Assembly (NCBI RefSeq): GCF_000092285.1 | Contig: NC_014100.1 | Location: 3,162,001-3,226,000 of the forward strand | DNA from: Caulobacter segnis ATCC 21756 | GTDB lineage: Bacteria > Pseudomonadota > Alphaproteobacteria > Caulobacterales > Caulobacteraceae | Direction: 5' to 3' | DNA length: 64,000 nucleotides | Shown here: piece by piece, positions 52,787 through 64,000 of the stretch | How positions within the stretch are numbered: the first letter of the stretch is position 1 | Layout: every line of letters starts with the position of its first letter | Notes under the pieces: generated by a model | Databases searched by the model: none | Told to the model about the DNA's origin: nothing | Seen by the model: the letters and a program-made list of their open reading frames with translations, nothing else | Translations under genes and position numbers: made by a program

Positions 52787-52861
52787 GGATGCGTAGCTCA
52801 GCGGGAGAGCACCTCGTTCACACCGAGGGGGTCACAGGTTCAATCCCTGTCGCATCCACCA
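52787..52861 (+). tRNA. tRNA-Val (CAC)
   Basis: The full cloverleaf has acceptor GGATGCG / CGCATCC, D-arm GCTCAGCGGGAGAGC, anticodon arm CCTCG-TTCACAC-CGAGG and T-arm ACAGG-TTCAATC-CCTGT; CCA is encoded. The anticodon CAC reads GUG (Val). A T-rich tail follows. Everything to the right looks accessory, so its 3' end is a plausible integration site, but I found no second copy of that end in the window. Confidence 0.95.
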
Positions 52862-53013
52862 TTCTTTTTTCCAAACACTTTCAAATAGTTATCGGTCGCC
52901 ACTCCATCGCGCTAGGCGCTTGGATGACGAGTGCCCACCAAATTGCCCTCCAGATTTAGGCCCGTCGGCTCGAATTGGGGATCGCCGATTGACTCCGTCG
53001 CATTGCAGAACGA

Positions 53014-53480: not shown

Positions 53481-53756
53481 CTAAGCCTTCGGCTCCAGGT
53501 CGAAGTAAGGCGCGCCCTCGCCGCCGCCCTCGGCGCGGTTCAGAACCTTGTCCTCGCGCGCCCTGGCGACACGGACCTGCACGCCGCGATACCGGATGCC
53601 ATGAAGGATGTTCGTGCACCGCGCCCGCCCGGTCGGAAGCCGCGCGAAGCTGTCGGCCGCCATGCTGATCACGCCAGGAAGAAGGGCTTCGTCGCCCTTT
53701 TCCTTGGCCTCGCTGGCCATCAGGTCGAGCAGGTGGTCGATGTCGTCGAAGGTCAT
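53481..53756 (-). CDS. 91-aa acidic hypothetical protein
   Basis: The protein (MTFDDIDHLLDLMASEAKEK..., ending YFDLEPKA) has a helical N-terminal part, rich in Asp and Glu, and a basic middle (RYRGVQVRVARARED). There is no signal or membrane segment. It converges on the zinc-ribbon gene with 22 bp between. I do not recognise it; coding is supported by codon usage and a clean frame only. Confidence 0.5.
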   Translation of the reverse strand: MTFDDIDHLLDLMASEAKEKGDEALLPGVISMAADSFARLPTGRARCTNILHGIRYRGVQVRVARAREDKVLNRAEGGGEGAPYFDLEPKA

Positions 53757-53886: not shown

Positions 53887-54003
53887 ATGAAGCCCATCTT
53901 CGAGATCCATATAGGAACCAACGAAGGACAGGTTGGTTGGTTAAAGCGCGACGAGACCGCACGAGTTTTGGCAGCTATCCGTCCGACGAAGAGGATGTTA
54001 TGA
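53887..54003 (+). CDS. 38-aa protein, first gene of an unknown three-gene operon
   Basis: The frame encodes MKPIFEIHIGTNEGQVGWLK and continues RDETARVLAAIRPTKRML. Its TGA overlaps the next gene's ATG (ATGA), a hallmark of coupled translation that supports it being real. It is too short for a family call. It might act as a leader, an inhibitor or a subunit of the next protein. Confidence 0.5.
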   Translation: MKPIFEIHIGTNEGQVGWLKRDETARVLAAIRPTKRML

Positions 54004-54593
54004 GAGCGGCAAAGCTTAAAGAGTCGGGGGGCTTCATGGCGCTAGGAAACAGCGAGGCGGCTCGCTACCGCGCCGAGATCGCGAAGGTCATGTCTGGAGA
54101 GTCTTCCGACGTGGTCTTTAACGGCACTCTCGAACACGCATGCATCGTAATCGAAGAGGCATTCGAGGCGGCTCGCTCACACGTTCGAATCCTGACGAAC
54201 CGGCTCGACTGCAACTGCTACGACCGGGACACGATTGTTGACTCCATGAGGCGCTTTTTAGATCGACCGGGGATGCGTCTGGACGTCTTGGTCGAAGACG
54301 AGACCAGCGCCGCAACCGCCATGGGCCGTCGGTTTATCGAGGAAGCTGAAAGCGCCGCAGGCGAACGCTTCACCATCCTCGCCGTGCCGCAGCGGATCGT
54401 GGAGCAATACAAGTACAACTTCCTGTTAGTCGACGACGTCGCCTTGCGCTTTGAAGAGGATCGACGCGCTCCGGTTGCTGTTGTCAGCGGCGGCAATGAA
54501 GCACTTCCGGTTGTGAAAAACCTGTTGCGCGTATTCAACGCTATTCAATCAGCCTCCAGGCCACTTGCTAAGCGAGTAGCCCAAGCAGCCTAG
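54000..54593 (+). CDS. Degenerate phospholipase-D-like protein
   Basis: This 197-aa protein starts at the ATG at 54000 with GAGG upstream; the longer frame from 53937 overlaps the 38-aa gene and was not chosen. The arrangement resembles one PLD-fold half: a helix (HACIVIEEAFEAARSHVRIL), a strand-turn (LDVLVEDE), and YKYNFLLVDDVALRFEEDRR then VAVVSGGN. In the PLD HxKx4D motif the His and Lys are replaced here (YKYNFLLVDD), so catalysis by that route is doubtful. The base composition is less GC-biased than that of the flanking chromosome. Confidence 0.62.
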   Translation: MRAAKLKESGGFMALGNSEAARYRAEIAKVMSGESSDVVFNGTLEHACIVIEEAFEAARSHVRILTNRLDCNCYDRDTIVDSMRRFLDRPGMRLDVLVEDETSAATAMGRRFIEEAESAAGERFTILAVPQRIVEQYKYNFLLVDDVALRFEEDRRAPVAVVSGGNEALPVVKNLLRVFNAIQSASRPLAKRVAQAA

Positions 54594-54626
54594 ACTTAAC
54601 GGTTGAGTTTTTGACCAAAGCAGGTC

Positions 54627-55490
54627 ATGAAACTCGACGTTGGGGCGGGGGCTCGGTTGATTAAGCGGAAGCATATTCTAGCGCTGGCCGTCGTTCTAGC
54701 GCCTCTTACAGTCGCATTTTGGGTGTGCGGGTTTACCGGCAAGGTTAGCCGGGTCGATCTCGCGGCGATCAGTGGAAGCACTGAGGTCGCGATCGGGATA
54801 TGTGCGTCCTATCTCGCGTTCGACCGCTTCCGCTTTCATGCGAGATTTAACTATATTGCGAGACGGATCACGCGCGAGAAGGCATCCGGGCCAGATGTCC
54901 TTATCGCCTCTCGAAGCGACGGAGCGATGAACTCGGACGAGATCGGGCTTCTGTCAGTTTACTACCTGGCTGGCGACGAGCAGGTCGTCAAGTACTTCAA
55001 AAGCCACGAGCACTTACTGTCTCAGAGCGAATTTCTCGACTCAGTTACCGGGAAGGCCCTCGCGCTACTACTTCAGACCCAGATCGATCGCATGCTGATC
55101 ATGGCGCTCGCGGCCGTTCTTTGCGCATGGGAGATGGCTTCTGCTGTTTTCCAACTCCAGCACTCTCTAGTGACGGCATGGCTCCCTCCGGCGAAAATCC
55201 TGTGCGCGGCTCTGATCGGCACAGGTGCCGGCTATCTGCTCCCCGCATTGTTCTTCGTCAGCTCCAAATTACTTTTTGATAACGTGGAGCGCTACATGGA
55301 CCGACGCTTCAAAAGTATGGCGGTCACGATGAAACGAGAGGCAGAGACCGTTTCTCCGCCAAAGCTCACCCCCGCGCCGAAAACTGCAGCATCCAGGTCG
55401 GTGAAAAGGCCAATTCGGCCAACAGCCACCAAACCCAACCCATCCGCCACGCGACCAATCCGGCCAAAGAAACCGAGTGGCCCCCGATAG
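54627..55490 (+). CDS. Membrane protein with a long basic, Pro-rich tail
   Basis: This 287-aa protein has hydrophobic segments at about residues 17-38, 45-62, 153-175 and 190-213. The region between (about 63-150) is soluble and contains KASGPDVLIASRSDG. The last 60 residues are Pro/Lys/Arg-rich with repeated RPIRPT/K units and lack structure. Its gene follows the PLD-like gene by 33 bp on the same strand and ends the operon. No family is recognised. It could anchor the PLD-like protein at the membrane. Confidence 0.62.
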   Translation: MKLDVGAGARLIKRKHILALAVVLAPLTVAFWVCGFTGKVSRVDLAAISGSTEVAIGICASYLAFDRFRFHARFNYIARRITREKASGPDVLIASRSDGAMNSDEIGLLSVYYLAGDEQVVKYFKSHEHLLSQSEFLDSVTGKALALLLQTQIDRMLIMALAAVLCAWEMASAVFQLQHSLVTAWLPPAKILCAALIGTGAGYLLPALFFVSSKLLFDNVERYMDRRFKSMAVTMKREAETVSPPKLTPAPKTAASRSVKRPIRPTATKPNPSATRPIRPKKPSGPR

Positions 55491-55511: not shown

Positions 55512-55745
55512 TTACTGTGGCGCTTCCGTCTCCCACGGGCGGACCCAGAGCAGCCCCACCGCAACCCCTATGGCGGCGACGACGCCCAGCTCGATCGCCG
55601 AAGGCCGCCGCCCCATGAACGCGAGCGCCGCGAACAGCACAGCGCCGACAAAGAGGCCGACCAGCGCAACGCCGATCGCGCCCATGACCAGCTTCTCTCC
55701 GCGCGAAAGCGGCTGTTCCCCGCCGTCAGGCCAGTTGTTCGCCAC
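55512..55745 (-). CDS. 77-aa two-helix membrane protein of the phage lysis region
   Basis: The start is a GTG at 55745 with an excellent GGAGGGGGGAGG upstream; a longer frame to 55826 has no such site. Two hydrophobic segments (about residues 22-44 and 52-70) suggest a small membrane protein. Its C-terminus ends RPWETEAPQ. It is the last gene of the - strand set of phage-type genes; a spanin or second holin function is possible but unproven. Confidence 0.6.
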   Translation of the reverse strand: MANNWPDGGEQPLSRGEKLVMGAIGVALVGLFVGAVLFAALAFMGRRPSAIELGVVAAIGVAVGLLWVRPWETEAPQ

Positions 55746-55864
55746 TGCCGCCCTCCCCCCTCCAGTCAGGCCACAATAGCAAAAGGGCCCGCCACGCCGA
55801 AGCGCAGCGGGCCGGTTGGCGCTCAAACCTCGGAGGGCGAGCGGGTAGGTGTCAGGCAGAGCGG

Positions 55865-56113
55865 TCAGGTCCCGCCCGGCGGGGTCGCCGGTTTGACGCC
55901 GGCTTCGCTTGACGGCGCTGGATCACAGATGATCCGGAACGAGCCGGTGACGCCTGCGCCGATCGCGCCGCTGTATTCTCGGTGGCAGCCTTCGAGATTG
56001 GTCAGGACCTTCTCGCCAACACCGCCGGGCTGCAGGGCAGCGTCAAAGCTCGAACAGGCCGACAGCGACAGACATGCGAGCGCGACGCCCGCCAGGAAGA
56101 TGGCGCGCTTCAT
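55865..56113 (-). CDS. Small lipoprotein of the prophage remnant
   Basis: This 82-aa protein has a lipobox LSAC at residues 17-20 (Cys20). The mature part carries two further Cys (GCHREY and IICDPAP) that could form a disulfide, and ends Pro-rich. Small lipoproteins next to phage lysis genes are often outer spanins (Rz1-like), but no matching inner spanin is clear. Confidence 0.65.
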   Translation of the reverse strand: MKRAIFLAGVALACLSLSACSSFDAALQPGGVGEKVLTNLEGCHREYSGAIGAGVTGSFRIICDPAPSSEAGVKPATPPGGT

Positions 56114-56157
56114 GGGAAGCCTCCATGTGGGATTGCCGGCTGCCGGCCGGCGCGGGT

Positions 56158-56541
56158 TCAGGCGGTGACGACCAGGTCGCGGTCGCCGGACTTCCAGATC
56201 AGTTCGCGCACCACGCGCGGCAGGATGATGCAGCCCTTCGACGCCGTTCCGGGCGCCTTGATGCTATCGCCGTGGATGCGGAACGCGCCCCGCCCCGTCC
56301 GCTGATCGATGTCGTCCCCGGGGTTGGCGTCGATGGCGTCCAGCACCAGCGTGTAGGGCCCGACGCTACCGCTGTCGTAGGGCGCGCCGATCCGGTAGCG
56401 GCCGGCCGGGATCGGCCCTATGCCGGGCATGCCCTCCAGGGTGGGGTTGTTCTTCCCTCGGCCGTTGCCGCTATAGCCACGCGAGACCAGCTTCCCGTCG
56501 CGCGACAGGGTCCCAGCCGATTGGTCCCAGGTCCAGGTCAC
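56158..56541 (-). CDS. Tlde1/DUF2778-like peptidoglycan-acting enzyme
   Basis: This 127-aa protein reads WDQSAGTLSRDGKLVSRGYSG at the N-terminus, then PIPAGRYRIG, FRIHGDSIKAPGTASKGCIILP. The HGD and S-x-GCI arrangement (His91 and Cys105) is the L,D-transpeptidase-type active site used by Tlde1 effectors and DUF2778 proteins. In this setting it may be the phage's wall-degrading enzyme. Its start overlaps the preceding gene's stop (ATGA), and no secretion signal is present. Confidence 0.82.
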   Translation of the reverse strand: MTWTWDQSAGTLSRDGKLVSRGYSGNGRGKNNPTLEGMPGIGPIPAGRYRIGAPYDSGSVGPYTLVLDAIDANPGDDIDQRTGRGAFRIHGDSIKAPGTASKGCIILPRVVRELIWKSGDRDLVVTA

Positions 56542-56849
56542 CGGCCACCTCTACGGTGCGCGCGGGCCGGCCGGTGCTTGATCACCCAGGCCAGGACCGC
56601 GAAGCCGCCCAGCGCGAAGGCGGCCGCGAAGAACACAGTCACGGGCGTGATGACGGCCGCCGGATGGCGCATGGCCACGAACGCCGCCACCAACCAGAAC
56701 ACCGCCACCAGGTGCAGGATCTGGCGCAGCCAGATTGGCGCGTCACGCCAGCCGCGGGCGCTGGCGCCCAGCAGATAGCCAGACATCAGGAACGTCCCGA
56801 CCGCCACCATGGCCAGCACGACGCTCAGGGGCTGCAGGAAGGCGCTCAT
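56538..56849 (-). CDS. 103-aa three-helix membrane protein (holin-like)
   Basis: The ATG at 56849 is chosen because it overlaps the stop of the upstream gene (ATGA); a longer frame runs antisense to real sequence. The protein has hydrophobic stretches at about residues 9-30, 42-60 and 67-90 and a basic C-terminus (HRPARAHRRGGR). Small size, several helices and a charged tail beside a lysin-like gene make it a holin candidate. Confidence 0.65.
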   Translation of the reverse strand: MSAFLQPLSVVLAMVAVGTFLMSGYLLGASARGWRDAPIWLRQILHLVAVFWLVAAFVAMRHPAAVITPVTVFFAAAFALGGFAVLAWVIKHRPARAHRRGGR

Positions 56850-57214
56850 TGGACCACTCCCGCCTTGCCCTTCAGCCAGGCGAACAGGCGCGCCCTGGCG
56901 TCCGGATTGGCGATCAGCAAGACCGTTAAGCTGGCCAGCAGCGCCACGGCGGTCAGGTGATCGACCTTGAACCCGACCTTCACCGGGCTGAGGCCCAGCG
57001 CCCAGTTGACCAGGTCCGCCGCCCACGGCGCGCACAACGGCGCGGCGAAGGTGACGGACGCGACCGTCAGGATCGCCTCGAGCACGCGGCGGATGACCGG
57101 CCGTCGCTCGGGTGGCGGCTCGCCGAAGATAAAGGCCACCATCTGAAATCCGACCCATAGGGCGGACACGATGAAGGCCACGGCCCCAGCTTGAAGCCGG
57201 TGCTTGTCGTCCAT
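56846..57214 (-). CDS. 122-aa membrane protein in the lysis cassette
   Basis: The protein (MDDKHRLQAGAVAFIVSALW...) has four hydrophobic segments, with a loop EPPPERRPVIRRVLE after the first. Its stop overlaps the start of the next gene. It is the first gene of the unit with the 103-aa membrane protein and the Tlde1-like enzyme. A role in holin/antiholin control fits the position but the sequence alone does not prove it. Confidence 0.62.
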   Translation of the reverse strand: MDDKHRLQAGAVAFIVSALWVGFQMVAFIFGEPPPERRPVIRRVLEAILTVASVTFAAPLCAPWAADLVNWALGLSPVKVGFKVDHLTAVALLASLTVLLIANPDARARLFAWLKGKAGVVQ

Positions 57215-57545: not shown

Positions 57546-58763
57546 TCACCACCCCCTCGAAGTGATCTCGTTGGCTTGGAACAGCGACTTCATGTCATAG
57601 CCTGCGTCGTTCAGGTGAGTGCTGTCCGCGCGCAGGGAGGTGGGGATCGTGTCGTTGGCGATGTCGGTCAAGTCCTGAGTGGTCGGCGTGATACCAGCCT
57701 GCGCGAGCCCGTGCTGGATCATCCAGGTGCGGTAATCAGAGAACTTGTCGCCGTATGTCGACTGAAGCTGGGCGTTGATCGCCATGATGCGATCGTACAT
57801 GGCGGTGCCGGGGATTTCGTCGGTCTTGTTGATCACCGGCGAGATCAAATAGCGCGGTTCGCGCGGCCGCAACATCGCCACCATGGCGGCGAGGTCATCG
57901 AATAGGGTCGTCCCCTCTTCAGGGTTGTTCCGTCCGTACTCAAAAATGTTGATGCGATCGAGTAGGTCCGTGTTGAAATATGGAATGATGGCGGCATTTA
58001 CGGGTGTATCAACAGCGACACCAGCAGCGGATCGCGTGAACGAAGCCCCCTCACTGGCATTTTTCGTGAACGTCCCTTGGACGCCCTCGCAAATGCAAGT
58101 CATTGAACGCGACACGCCCGGGCTGAATAGCGGGTTCGGCGTCGACACGAAATTAATCGTGTTAGCTCCGGTATCAGCCCTTATTTGAGCTGCTGTTGGT
58201 GAACTGATCTGAACACTAACAGGAATAGCGCCGAACCTGGCCGCCCCCTGCGCAGAGGATTGGCCGCCGACAGCGTCGACCGAGACGGTACGCTGGAGCC
58301 GCGCAGCCAAGCGCTGCCCCAGCGTGGCAGCACCCCCGCTGCTCCCAGCGCTCTCCGTTAGGCTGTCGCCGCGCAGGACGATGGTGGAAAGGCTGTGATC
58401 CAGACCGTCGCCGTACTCCACGCACTCCCACTGCTGACCAAGGGTCTTACCGATGATCTGCCATGAGCCTTCGTAGCGCGTTTGAATAAACCGCGCCTCG
58501 CCCGCTTTGATCAGGAGCGAGGGAGGATTGTAGCCCGCGCGATAGCGGCTAACCCACAGATCTCCCGCCGAGATATTTCTCAGCAGGATACCACGCCGGT
58601 TCTGTCGAGCCGCCAGTAGGACCTGAGCTACGCCCGCCGCCGCCAGGGATCCAGGGCGCGAAATTTCTTCGAAGTAGTAACCGGACCGGGATGGCTCGGT
58701 AAGGCCATTCAATCGACCCCGGATTGCACCCCAGGTCTCATCAACGCCAATCAGATCAACCAT
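57546..58763 (-). CDS. Phage SGNH/GDSL-type esterase or tail protein
   Basis: This 405-aa protein has the block-I signature LRGDSLTES (Ser near 155) and the C-terminal block-V DSTHLNDAGY (Asp and His near 384-387), which make a GDSL/SGNH catalytic pair. The N-terminal ~150 residues form a separate virion-attachment-like part. Tail-associated SGNH proteins deacylate capsule or surface polysaccharide during adsorption. The gene lies between a 40-aa gene (8-bp overlap) and the 77-aa gene, in a tail-fibre cluster. Confidence 0.8.
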   Translation of the reverse strand: MVDLIGVDETWGAIRGRLNGLTEPSRSGYYFEEISRPGSLAAAGVAQVLLAARQNRRGILLRNISAGDLWVSRYRAGYNPPSLLIKAGEARFIQTRYEGSWQIIGKTLGQQWECVEYGDGLDHSLSTIVLRGDSLTESAGSSGGAATLGQRLAARLQRTVSVDAVGGQSSAQGAARFGAIPVSVQISSPTAAQIRADTGANTINFVSTPNPLFSPGVSRSMTCICEGVQGTFTKNASEGASFTRSAAGVAVDTPVNAAIIPYFNTDLLDRINIFEYGRNNPEEGTTLFDDLAAMVAMLRPREPRYLISPVINKTDEIPGTAMYDRIMAINAQLQSTYGDKFSDYRTWMIQHGLAQAGITPTTQDLTDIANDTIPTSLRADSTHLNDAGYDMKSLFQANEITSRGW

Positions 58764-58878
58764 TGTCGGTCAGCCTTTGCGTGTCGCGCAGAACGAGAGC
58801 GTCGCGCATGATCGTGAGTGTGCGGATGACCCCACCACCCTTAGAGAGGGCGGCAAGGGAAAGAGAAATTGCGATCAT
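58756..58878 (-). CDS. 40-aa protein between tail genes
   Basis: The frame from the ATG at 58878 encodes MIAISLSLAALSKGGGVIRT and ends RDTQRLTDNG. It overlaps the SGNH gene by 8 bp and starts 3 bp after the upstream stop, so it fits tightly in the operon. Short proteins of this type are found at such positions in phage tail clusters. Function unknown. Confidence 0.45.
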   Translation of the reverse strand: MIAISLSLAALSKGGGVIRTLTIMRDALVLRDTQRLTDNG

Positions 58879-58881
58879 GGG

Positions 58882-59154
58882 TCACGCCGCGTCGAAGGCG
58901 ACAATGTCGGCGGCGGTCGTTCCGGTCGACTTCACCCTGAAAGCGAAGACCGGAAGAATCGTGCCGCTGGGCACGTTCGCAAAGGTGATGCTCGTAGTGC
59001 CGTCCATCGACACGATAGCGAGGTCGCCGCCGGTGCCGACGTAGAGGCCGCGCGCGTTCACTTCTGTCGTGTCATGCGGCGTGATCGCGATGGGATATCG
59101 GCCAGGATCGATGTTCTTTCCAACGCCTGCGGAAATCGTCTTTGGGGCGGGCAT
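58882..59154 (-). CDS. 90-aa phage structural-type protein
   Basis: This protein (ISAGVGKNIDPGRYPIAITP...TGGDLAIVSMDGTTSITFAN, ending IVAFDAA) is all-beta with Gly/Thr-rich turns. It resembles small spike or decoration proteins often called phage structural protein. The ATG at 59154 has a strong AAAGGAGG site. It follows the large tail-fibre gene in the same direction and is probably cotranscribed. Confidence 0.65.
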   Translation of the reverse strand: MPAPKTISAGVGKNIDPGRYPIAITPHDTTEVNARGLYVGTGGDLAIVSMDGTTSITFANVPSGTILPVFAFRVKSTGTTAADIVAFDAA

Positions 59155-59193
59155 GTGTGGCCCTCCTTTCGTTTTAGGATGATTTTCTGTTGG

Positions 59194-60963
<1,770 letters not shown>

Positions 60964-63418: not shown

Positions 63419-63847
63419 ATGGCCGGCGCTGATCGGGTCGCCGCCCGCCCCTTTCCCGAGGACTGGGCGGAGGACGAGCCGATGAGGCTGAACGAGGCCG
63501 TGGCGGTGTTCGCCGGCAAGCTGCCGATCACGACGCCGATGTTGCGGACCGAGATCGCCAAGGGCCGGCTCGTCCCCGCCCGGGTCGCGGGGAAGCTATT
63601 CGTCACGCCCGCGCAGCTTCGAGAGCTTTTTCGCCCATGCCCCGCCCCGCCCAAGGTCCTCGGCTCTATCTCCGCACCGGTCGCATCGACCCGCGCACGA
63701 AGCTCGCCCTCCCCGACGTCTACGTCATTCGGGACGGATCGACTCAAAAGAGCACGGGATGCGGCCCAGACCGCCTGCGAGAAGCTCAGCTCGCCTTCGC
63801 CCGCTATCTCGCGGGGCAGGCGGTCCGCGCCAGCGCCGCCGACTTGA
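63419..63847 (+). CDS. Excisionase-like helix-turn-helix protein
   Basis: This 142-aa protein has a winged-helix/AlpA-like DNA-binding part (MRLNEAVAVFAGKLPITTPM, then EIAKGRLVPARVAGKLFVTPA) followed by a Pro/Ser-rich tail. It may start at 63419 or at the ATG at 63482. Its last 70 residues overlap the integrase gene in another frame. In related islands the same arrangement of small DNA-binding protein and integrase is common. It probably sets the direction of recombination. Confidence 0.62.
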   Translation: MAGADRVAARPFPEDWAEDEPMRLNEAVAVFAGKLPITTPMLRTEIAKGRLVPARVAGKLFVTPAQLRELFRPCPAPPKVLGSISAPVASTRARSSPSPTSTSFGTDRLKRARDAAQTACEKLSSPSPAISRGRRSAPAPPT

Positions 63848-64000
63848 GCCGTCCCTCGCCCGGCCCCCTGGAGCCCATTAGGGATCGATCAGAGCCCATC
63901 CCCGTGGCCGAGGTCCTGGCGCTCTACGCGCAGGAGCGCGCGCCGGAGTTGGCGAGCTCTCCCGTGACGATGGCGGGCTTCATCCGAGCGCTCCTGTCGT
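63637..64000 (+). CDS. Tyrosine-type site-specific integrase, N-terminal part
   Basis: The frame starts at the ATG at 63637 and stays open to the right edge (121 residues visible). The opening GPRLYLRTGRIDPRTKLALP and DVYVIRDGSTQKSTGCG is typical of integrases of alphaproteobacterial islands, where an N-terminal DNA-binding domain precedes the catalytic Arg/His/Tyr domain. The catalytic residues lie outside the window. It overlaps the excisionase-like gene by 211 bp. The direction suggests the attachment site is to the right. Confidence 0.75.
   Translation, partial: MPRPAQGPRLYLRTGRIDPRTKLALPDVYVIRDGSTQKSTGCGPDRLREAQLAFARYLAGQAVRASAADLSRPSPGPLEPIRDRSEPIPVAEVLALYAQERAPELASSPVTMAGFIRALLS

Follow-up and report, generated by a model that had tools for sequence, protein, structure and literature searches.

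A candidate two-gene module of a pseudo-phospholipase D protein and a membrane protein at a tRNA-Val prophage remnant of Caulobacter segnis

The window analysed here, 64,000 nucleotides of Caulobacter segnis ATCC 21756 (contig NC_014100.1, positions 3,162,001 to 3,226,000), carries between a tRNA-Val gene and a prophage remnant two adjacent genes: A, which encodes a degenerate phospholipase D (PLD)-like protein of the DUF7931 type, and B, which encodes a membrane protein with a basic tail. We tentatively propose, with a little less than even confidence, that A and B are a moron pair of a temperate phage, in which a pseudo-PLD sensor or adaptor would act with a membrane effector against rival phages. 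That the pair represents a wider class of prophage-borne anti-phage modules, in which a dead DUF7931-derived PLD-fold sensor would gate a fast-evolving or exchangeable membrane effector, is clearly the more doubtful proposal.

The A-B pair and its relatives

An earlier note had read this place as an operon of three genes, and a check of its open reading frames (ORFs) recovers all three, of 38, 197 and 287 amino acids, with an ATGA overlap between the first two and 33 bp before the third (Table 1). The three-gene unit itself did not hold: at none of the seven other loci compared (0/7) did inspection by eye reveal an ORF like the 38-aa one ahead of A. Four of these seven (L057, L036, L037 and G418) have unrelated ORFs of 19-30 aa whose ends coincide with the start of A or lie close to it, and a short leader ORF is thus possible. 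To judge from the sequence, A may start at Met13, close to the starts of its nearer relatives; since those relatives start near Met13 and the 38-aa ORF has no similar counterpart, the finding is treated as a two-gene module.

Protein A scores 34.2 bits against PF25559 (DUF7931), whose cut-off is 27, five of its relatives score 43.8-51 bits, and the PLD fold is supported by structure comparison, the check named beforehand for the PLD-like match. The motif YKYNFLLVDD, taken earlier for a degenerate HxKx4D, is present and reads K138-x-N140-x4-D145 in that register. Across the aligned A family, His is absent from this position in 9/9 members and Lys in 9/9, while Asp is retained in 6/9, and a catalytic PLD or nuclease was rejected because the catalytic His is missing throughout. 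Residues conserved in the six closer members are N41, H46, E52, Y74, D145, R150 and E152, of which H46 and D145 are altered in the diverged ones. Weak DUF7436 matches of the L055 and L004 A proteins (E 0.021 and 0.076) were left unused.

The eight other A loci are L057 (the same as L004, Alpha proteobacterium Mf 1.05b.01, on the contig of the same-class genome G340), the IMG/VR contigs L036 and L037, the Kiloniellales and Rhodospirillales metagenome-assembled genomes L055 and L056, and G418, G314 and G1021, three genomes of one genus with a diverged A group. The A protein of G418 shares 19-23% identity with the six closer members; PF25559 matches neither it nor that of G314 (both scanned), and the A5 profile recovers the two at E 3.3e-10 and 6.8e-8. 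All relatives came from profile or alignment searches, a single-protein search having given L038 alone, which is the L036 contig seen a second time. Nothing was returned by tblastn of plasmids with A of the window, L004 and L037 and B of the window and L004, by tblastn of phages with A of the window and L037, by searches of viral contigs with window A, window B and L056 B, or by a search of genome contigs with window A.

At all nine loci, the window included, A is followed by a membrane-type ORF of 199-287 aa with at least two hydrophobic segments, whose start lies -37 to +103 bases from the end of A. The same test at 30 ordinary loci of DUF7931, all in other classes of the phylum, found no such ORF (0/30); these loci mostly have a cupin neighbour. 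The homologues, whose joint occurrence had been named beforehand as a check, therefore do occur together at 9/9 loci as A plus a membrane-type gene, homology of window B itself being unsupported. A scan with the B profile gave just two viral loci, both already known, and no B without A there. As a separate observation, the cupin gene lies near DUF7931 at 27/30 ordinary loci (L006-L035), or 24/27 minus three profile-building loci; we take it to be RoxA/YcfD-like, and its position hints at a functional link with ordinary DUF7931 proteins.

Window B has hydrophobic stretches at about 17-35, 43-63, 157-175 and 191-209: the four helices ascribed to it agree with this count, but only three stretches pass a stricter threshold and the structure model is of low confidence (predicted local distance difference test score, pLDDT, 61). 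It also has a middle region of ~90 residues. The other B proteins have 2-3 strict hydrophobic segments and a similar layout. The Pro/Arg/Lys tail reported earlier is indeed basic and Pro-rich, the protein having an isoelectric point (pI) of 10.0. B is thus a positional and architectural counterpart across the loci. Within a core of five B proteins, kinship between two subgroups is clear (hhalign 98%, E 7.7e-14), and a swapping of unrelated membrane partners is possible. Window B weakly matches a PHROG 'moron' membrane protein (E 0.0084); against Pfam and PADLOC no B match of weight was found, including to SLATT/CBASS-type effectors, no dedicated SLATT profile having been run. Weak matches of B proteins to UPF0302 (window, E 0.047), DUF5504 (L037, E 0.0093) and PRIMA1 (G314, E 0.0061, in the Pro-rich tail) were unused, and a B match in the relative G010 (E 1.5e-4, 3 internal stops) was dropped, as it crosses the reading frames of other genes.

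Table 1. Positions in the window of the A-B pair and neighbouring features
Feature	Position	Strand	Basis
tRNA-Val (CAC); 3' part plus 2 bases (52814-52863) is the probable left attachment site	52787..52861	+	50-bp exact repeat
38-aa ORF upstream of gene A, probably no conserved part of the module	53887..54003	+	ORF list
Gene A, DUF7931-type pseudo-phospholipase D, 197 aa	54000..54593 (alternative start 54036)	+	Pfam PF25559 match, PLD fold
Degenerate HxKx4D position, K138-x-N140-x4-D145	54411..54434	+	alignment
Gene B, membrane protein with Pro/Arg/Lys tail, 287 aa	54627..55490	+	hydrophobicity, pI 10.0, position shared at 9/9 loci
Late-region end of phage: small membrane and lipoprotein-like ORFs, Tlde1-domain gene (56158-56541)	55512..57214	-	
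Tail-fibre genes of the prophage remnant	57546..60963	-	PHROG tail matches
Start of tyrosine recombinase gene, which ends at window-equivalent 64878	63637..64000	+	PF00589 at G000:C1:3226339-3226827

Phage carriage, composition and distribution

Five of the nine loci, including the window, lie in phage DNA. In L036 an Amidase_2 gene and later a RES-domain gene precede the pair, which ends up ~1 kb from the contig end; in L037 the order is Amidase_2 gene, DUF6471, then pair, with a PHROG head protein in the same stretch. L056 has Phage_capsid_2 and a tail gene before the pair and a tail gene after it, and L057 a 1327-aa tail protein and DUF2793 before it, with host-type genes after it (by eye). 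The RES-domain gene of L036 (PF08808, E 7.8e-14) adjoins an unassigned 300-aa gene (L036:2364-4483), with which it possibly forms a toxin-antitoxin or defence unit. At L066, L067 and L072, from three genomes that share a genus, a thioredoxin-like gene is close to the pair; it was identified directly in L072 and deduced from a matching antisense ORF in the other two, and the pair may therefore be inherited with the chromosome there.

The composition of A and B is foreign: their G+C is 57.9% and 56.9% vs 67.6% for the window, and the weaker GC bias of their codons, pointed out earlier, is borne out by a G+C at third codon positions (GC3) of 0.67 and 0.65, vs a median of 0.92 (5% value 0.68, minimum 0.62) for 36 long ORFs left of the tRNA, a reference set whose selection was biased toward high GC3. 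Eight measured prophage genes have a G+C of 59-71%.

The placing of the trio to the right of tRNA-Val and beside a prophage remnant was also correct, with tail, lysis-side, DnaQ-like and integrase genes farther right: from the tRNA to the recombinase come the module, the lysis-side cluster, then minus-strand tail fibres and the DnaQ-like exonuclease. The module occupies the slot between the tRNA and the end of the phage late genes, where cargo genes are often found. No capsid, portal or terminase gene was noticed in the 12 window stretches scanned against PHROGs. An exact 50-bp copy of bases 52814-52863 is found at G000:C1:3369959-3370008, 155 kb farther right, and a third, degenerate copy lies at 3363658, suggesting that the remnant may lie at the edge of a far larger island or of insertions stacked on one another. 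Near the integrase no tRNA-end repeat of at least 13 bases was found, and the right edge of the remnant is therefore undefined. The Tlde1-domain protein (PF10908, E 1.9e-14) stands at the lysis-side end, where an endolysin might be expected.

The A family is rare. A protein search with A found its own genome alone among 199, Pfam DUF7931 occurs in 1/384 other genomes of the class, and the A family profile in 3/386; in the taxonomic family of G340 the profile found 0/39 other genomes, and in that of G418 3/3. A DNA search of 75 genomes of the genus, the window's included (at most four candidates scored per genome), matched other genomes in bases 1-305 of the query, which cover the neighbouring gene at 53481-53756, apart from two matches of 30 and 34 bases inside A. 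That neighbour, an ORF of 91 aa on the minus strand, has relatives at the DNA level in several genomes of the genus, and the same genome holds another stretch of 67% identity to it at G000:C1:2722666.

Proposed mechanism and rival readings

The gene layout, the pairing, the phage carriage and the foreign composition make the following mechanism the most likely one. The pair, retained by the remnant at tRNA-Val, would be expressed from the prophage in lysogens. A would be a cytosolic protein with one PLD-fold lobe and no catalytic activity, possibly dimeric like the single-motif enzyme Nuc, and B an inner-membrane protein acting as effector, with its middle domain and basic tail. Upon infection by another phage, A would bind a ligand made by that phage (a protein, a nucleic acid or a nucleotide), ligand-bound A would contact and switch B, and switched B would disturb the membrane, whereby the infection would be aborted or excluded.

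Several results weigh against this proposal. As to defence, no match below E 0.01 was obtained with PADLOC-DB 2.0.0 for 13 proteins (3 + 10, a set that left out those of G418, G314 and G1021), the best being 0.013 among the 10; of the defence or phage-exclusion module suggested at the outset, what stands is a phage-carried accessory module, and defence can only be inferred because no PADLOC model matches. More generally, the role of the pair is a prediction from its genes. No phage genes were seen by eye in the stretches read at four of the nine loci (L055, G418, G314 and G1021), and the nine are partly dependent: three share a genus, and L036 and L057 have A proteins with 63% identity. Kinship of the B proteins is also in doubt. 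The hhalign probability of window B with the others is only 6.8%; in the B profile search it is the top hit outside the five training proteins at E 0.046, with unrelated ORFs close behind (0.54 and 0.58), and when the profile is built from the B proteins of G418 and G314 it falls among unrelated ORFs (E 3.3), while these two proteins have no established kinship to the core five (G314 B, E 0.29). In the window, the lowest prophage gene, one of the tail genes, also has a lowish G+C (59.4%), a search for a sigma-70-like promoter found none (0.4 expected by chance), and, the remnant being decayed, the pair could be a relic.

Among other explanations, a toxin-antitoxin system maintained by addiction rather than defence, with B as a membrane toxin and A as its neutralising partner, is unlikely. 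In its favour, the genes are small, adjacent and ordered with A ahead of B, they lie on mobile DNA and also in the three genomes that share a genus, and the L036 stretch holds a RES-domain gene, but the enzyme-derived fold and conserved residues of A exceed the needs of a simple neutraliser, and at 199-287 aa the B proteins are larger than most membrane toxins. Somewhat less probable still is superinfection exclusion without abortive killing, in which B would block DNA entry or an entry receptor and A would serve as a cytosolic anchor: the prophage location and the membrane protein agree with this, and P22 SieA, a prophage exclusion protein reported in PMC10883804 to be necessary and sufficient, provides a precedent. 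Such proteins usually act alone, however, which leaves the pairing with A unexplained. A chance acquisition that serves lipid or envelope housekeeping, with no role in conflict, strikes us as improbable to nearly the same degree, since the rarity of A and its phage carriage at 5/9 loci speak against it, even if the remaining four show no visible phage genes and a cupin gene is the usual neighbour in the ordinary branch of DUF7931. Very unlikely, finally, is a part in lysis or release as a late phage function: the pair does lie downstream of amidase genes in L036 (4.3 kb, with intervening genes) and L037 (1.2 kb) and adjoins the lysis-side end in the window, but there it is on the strand opposite the late genes and lower in G+C, and four loci have no phage genes by eye.

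Relation to RexAB-type systems and significance

If A and B do act as a sensor and its membrane effector, their nearest analogues in plan are systems of the RexAB type (lambda RexAB, Sbash gp30/gp31, Pseudomonas putida RexABpp), which like A-B are prophage two-gene units of a cytosolic and a multi-span membrane protein, the latter encoded beside the sensor in a prophage, as is also found here (phage context at 5/9 loci). PMC6426596 gives Sbash gp30/gp31 the same plan, with a cytoplasmic region of gp31 between spans 2 and 3, and PMC12894663 describes the membrane protein of P. putida RexAB as a growth-suppressing effector stimulated by its DNA-binding partner. The sensors differ: A is a DUF7931 protein of PLD fold, whereas lambda RexA and Sbash gp30 are DUF4747 proteins. 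Pfam scans of 8 A and 8 B proteins gave no DUF4747 or RexB-type match (the DUF4747 model being presumably present in the library), while DUF7931 was found in 6/8 A. Since A falls outside the RexA family by Pfam, membership of the window pair in RexAB was rejected and the system is kept as one that A-B may work like. RexA is also absent among the structure matches listed for A, which excludes nothing.

Other pseudo-PLD proteins are more distant. The FAM83 (DUF1669) pseudo-PLDs and the PLD-fold domains of TrmB/TrmBL2 are at most 16% identical to A and are vertebrate or archaeal, and we know of no membrane partner gene for them. Nuc, NucT and the PLD domain of the restriction enzyme SauUSI are single-lobe PLD relatives, from which the A family differs by the loss of HxKx4D in 9/9 members.

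DUF7931 has no assigned function in Pfam and was not mentioned in the literature searched, where titles and abstract openings also held no description of a PLD-like, prophage-borne or anti-phage two-gene pair of this kind. The A-B pairing thus offers a testable hypothesis for one branch of DUF7931. If true, the sensor of this prophage exclusion system would be a pseudo-PLD, which is unusual for such a role, and the pair would represent a RexAB-like system with an unrelated sensor, from the Alphaproteobacteria.
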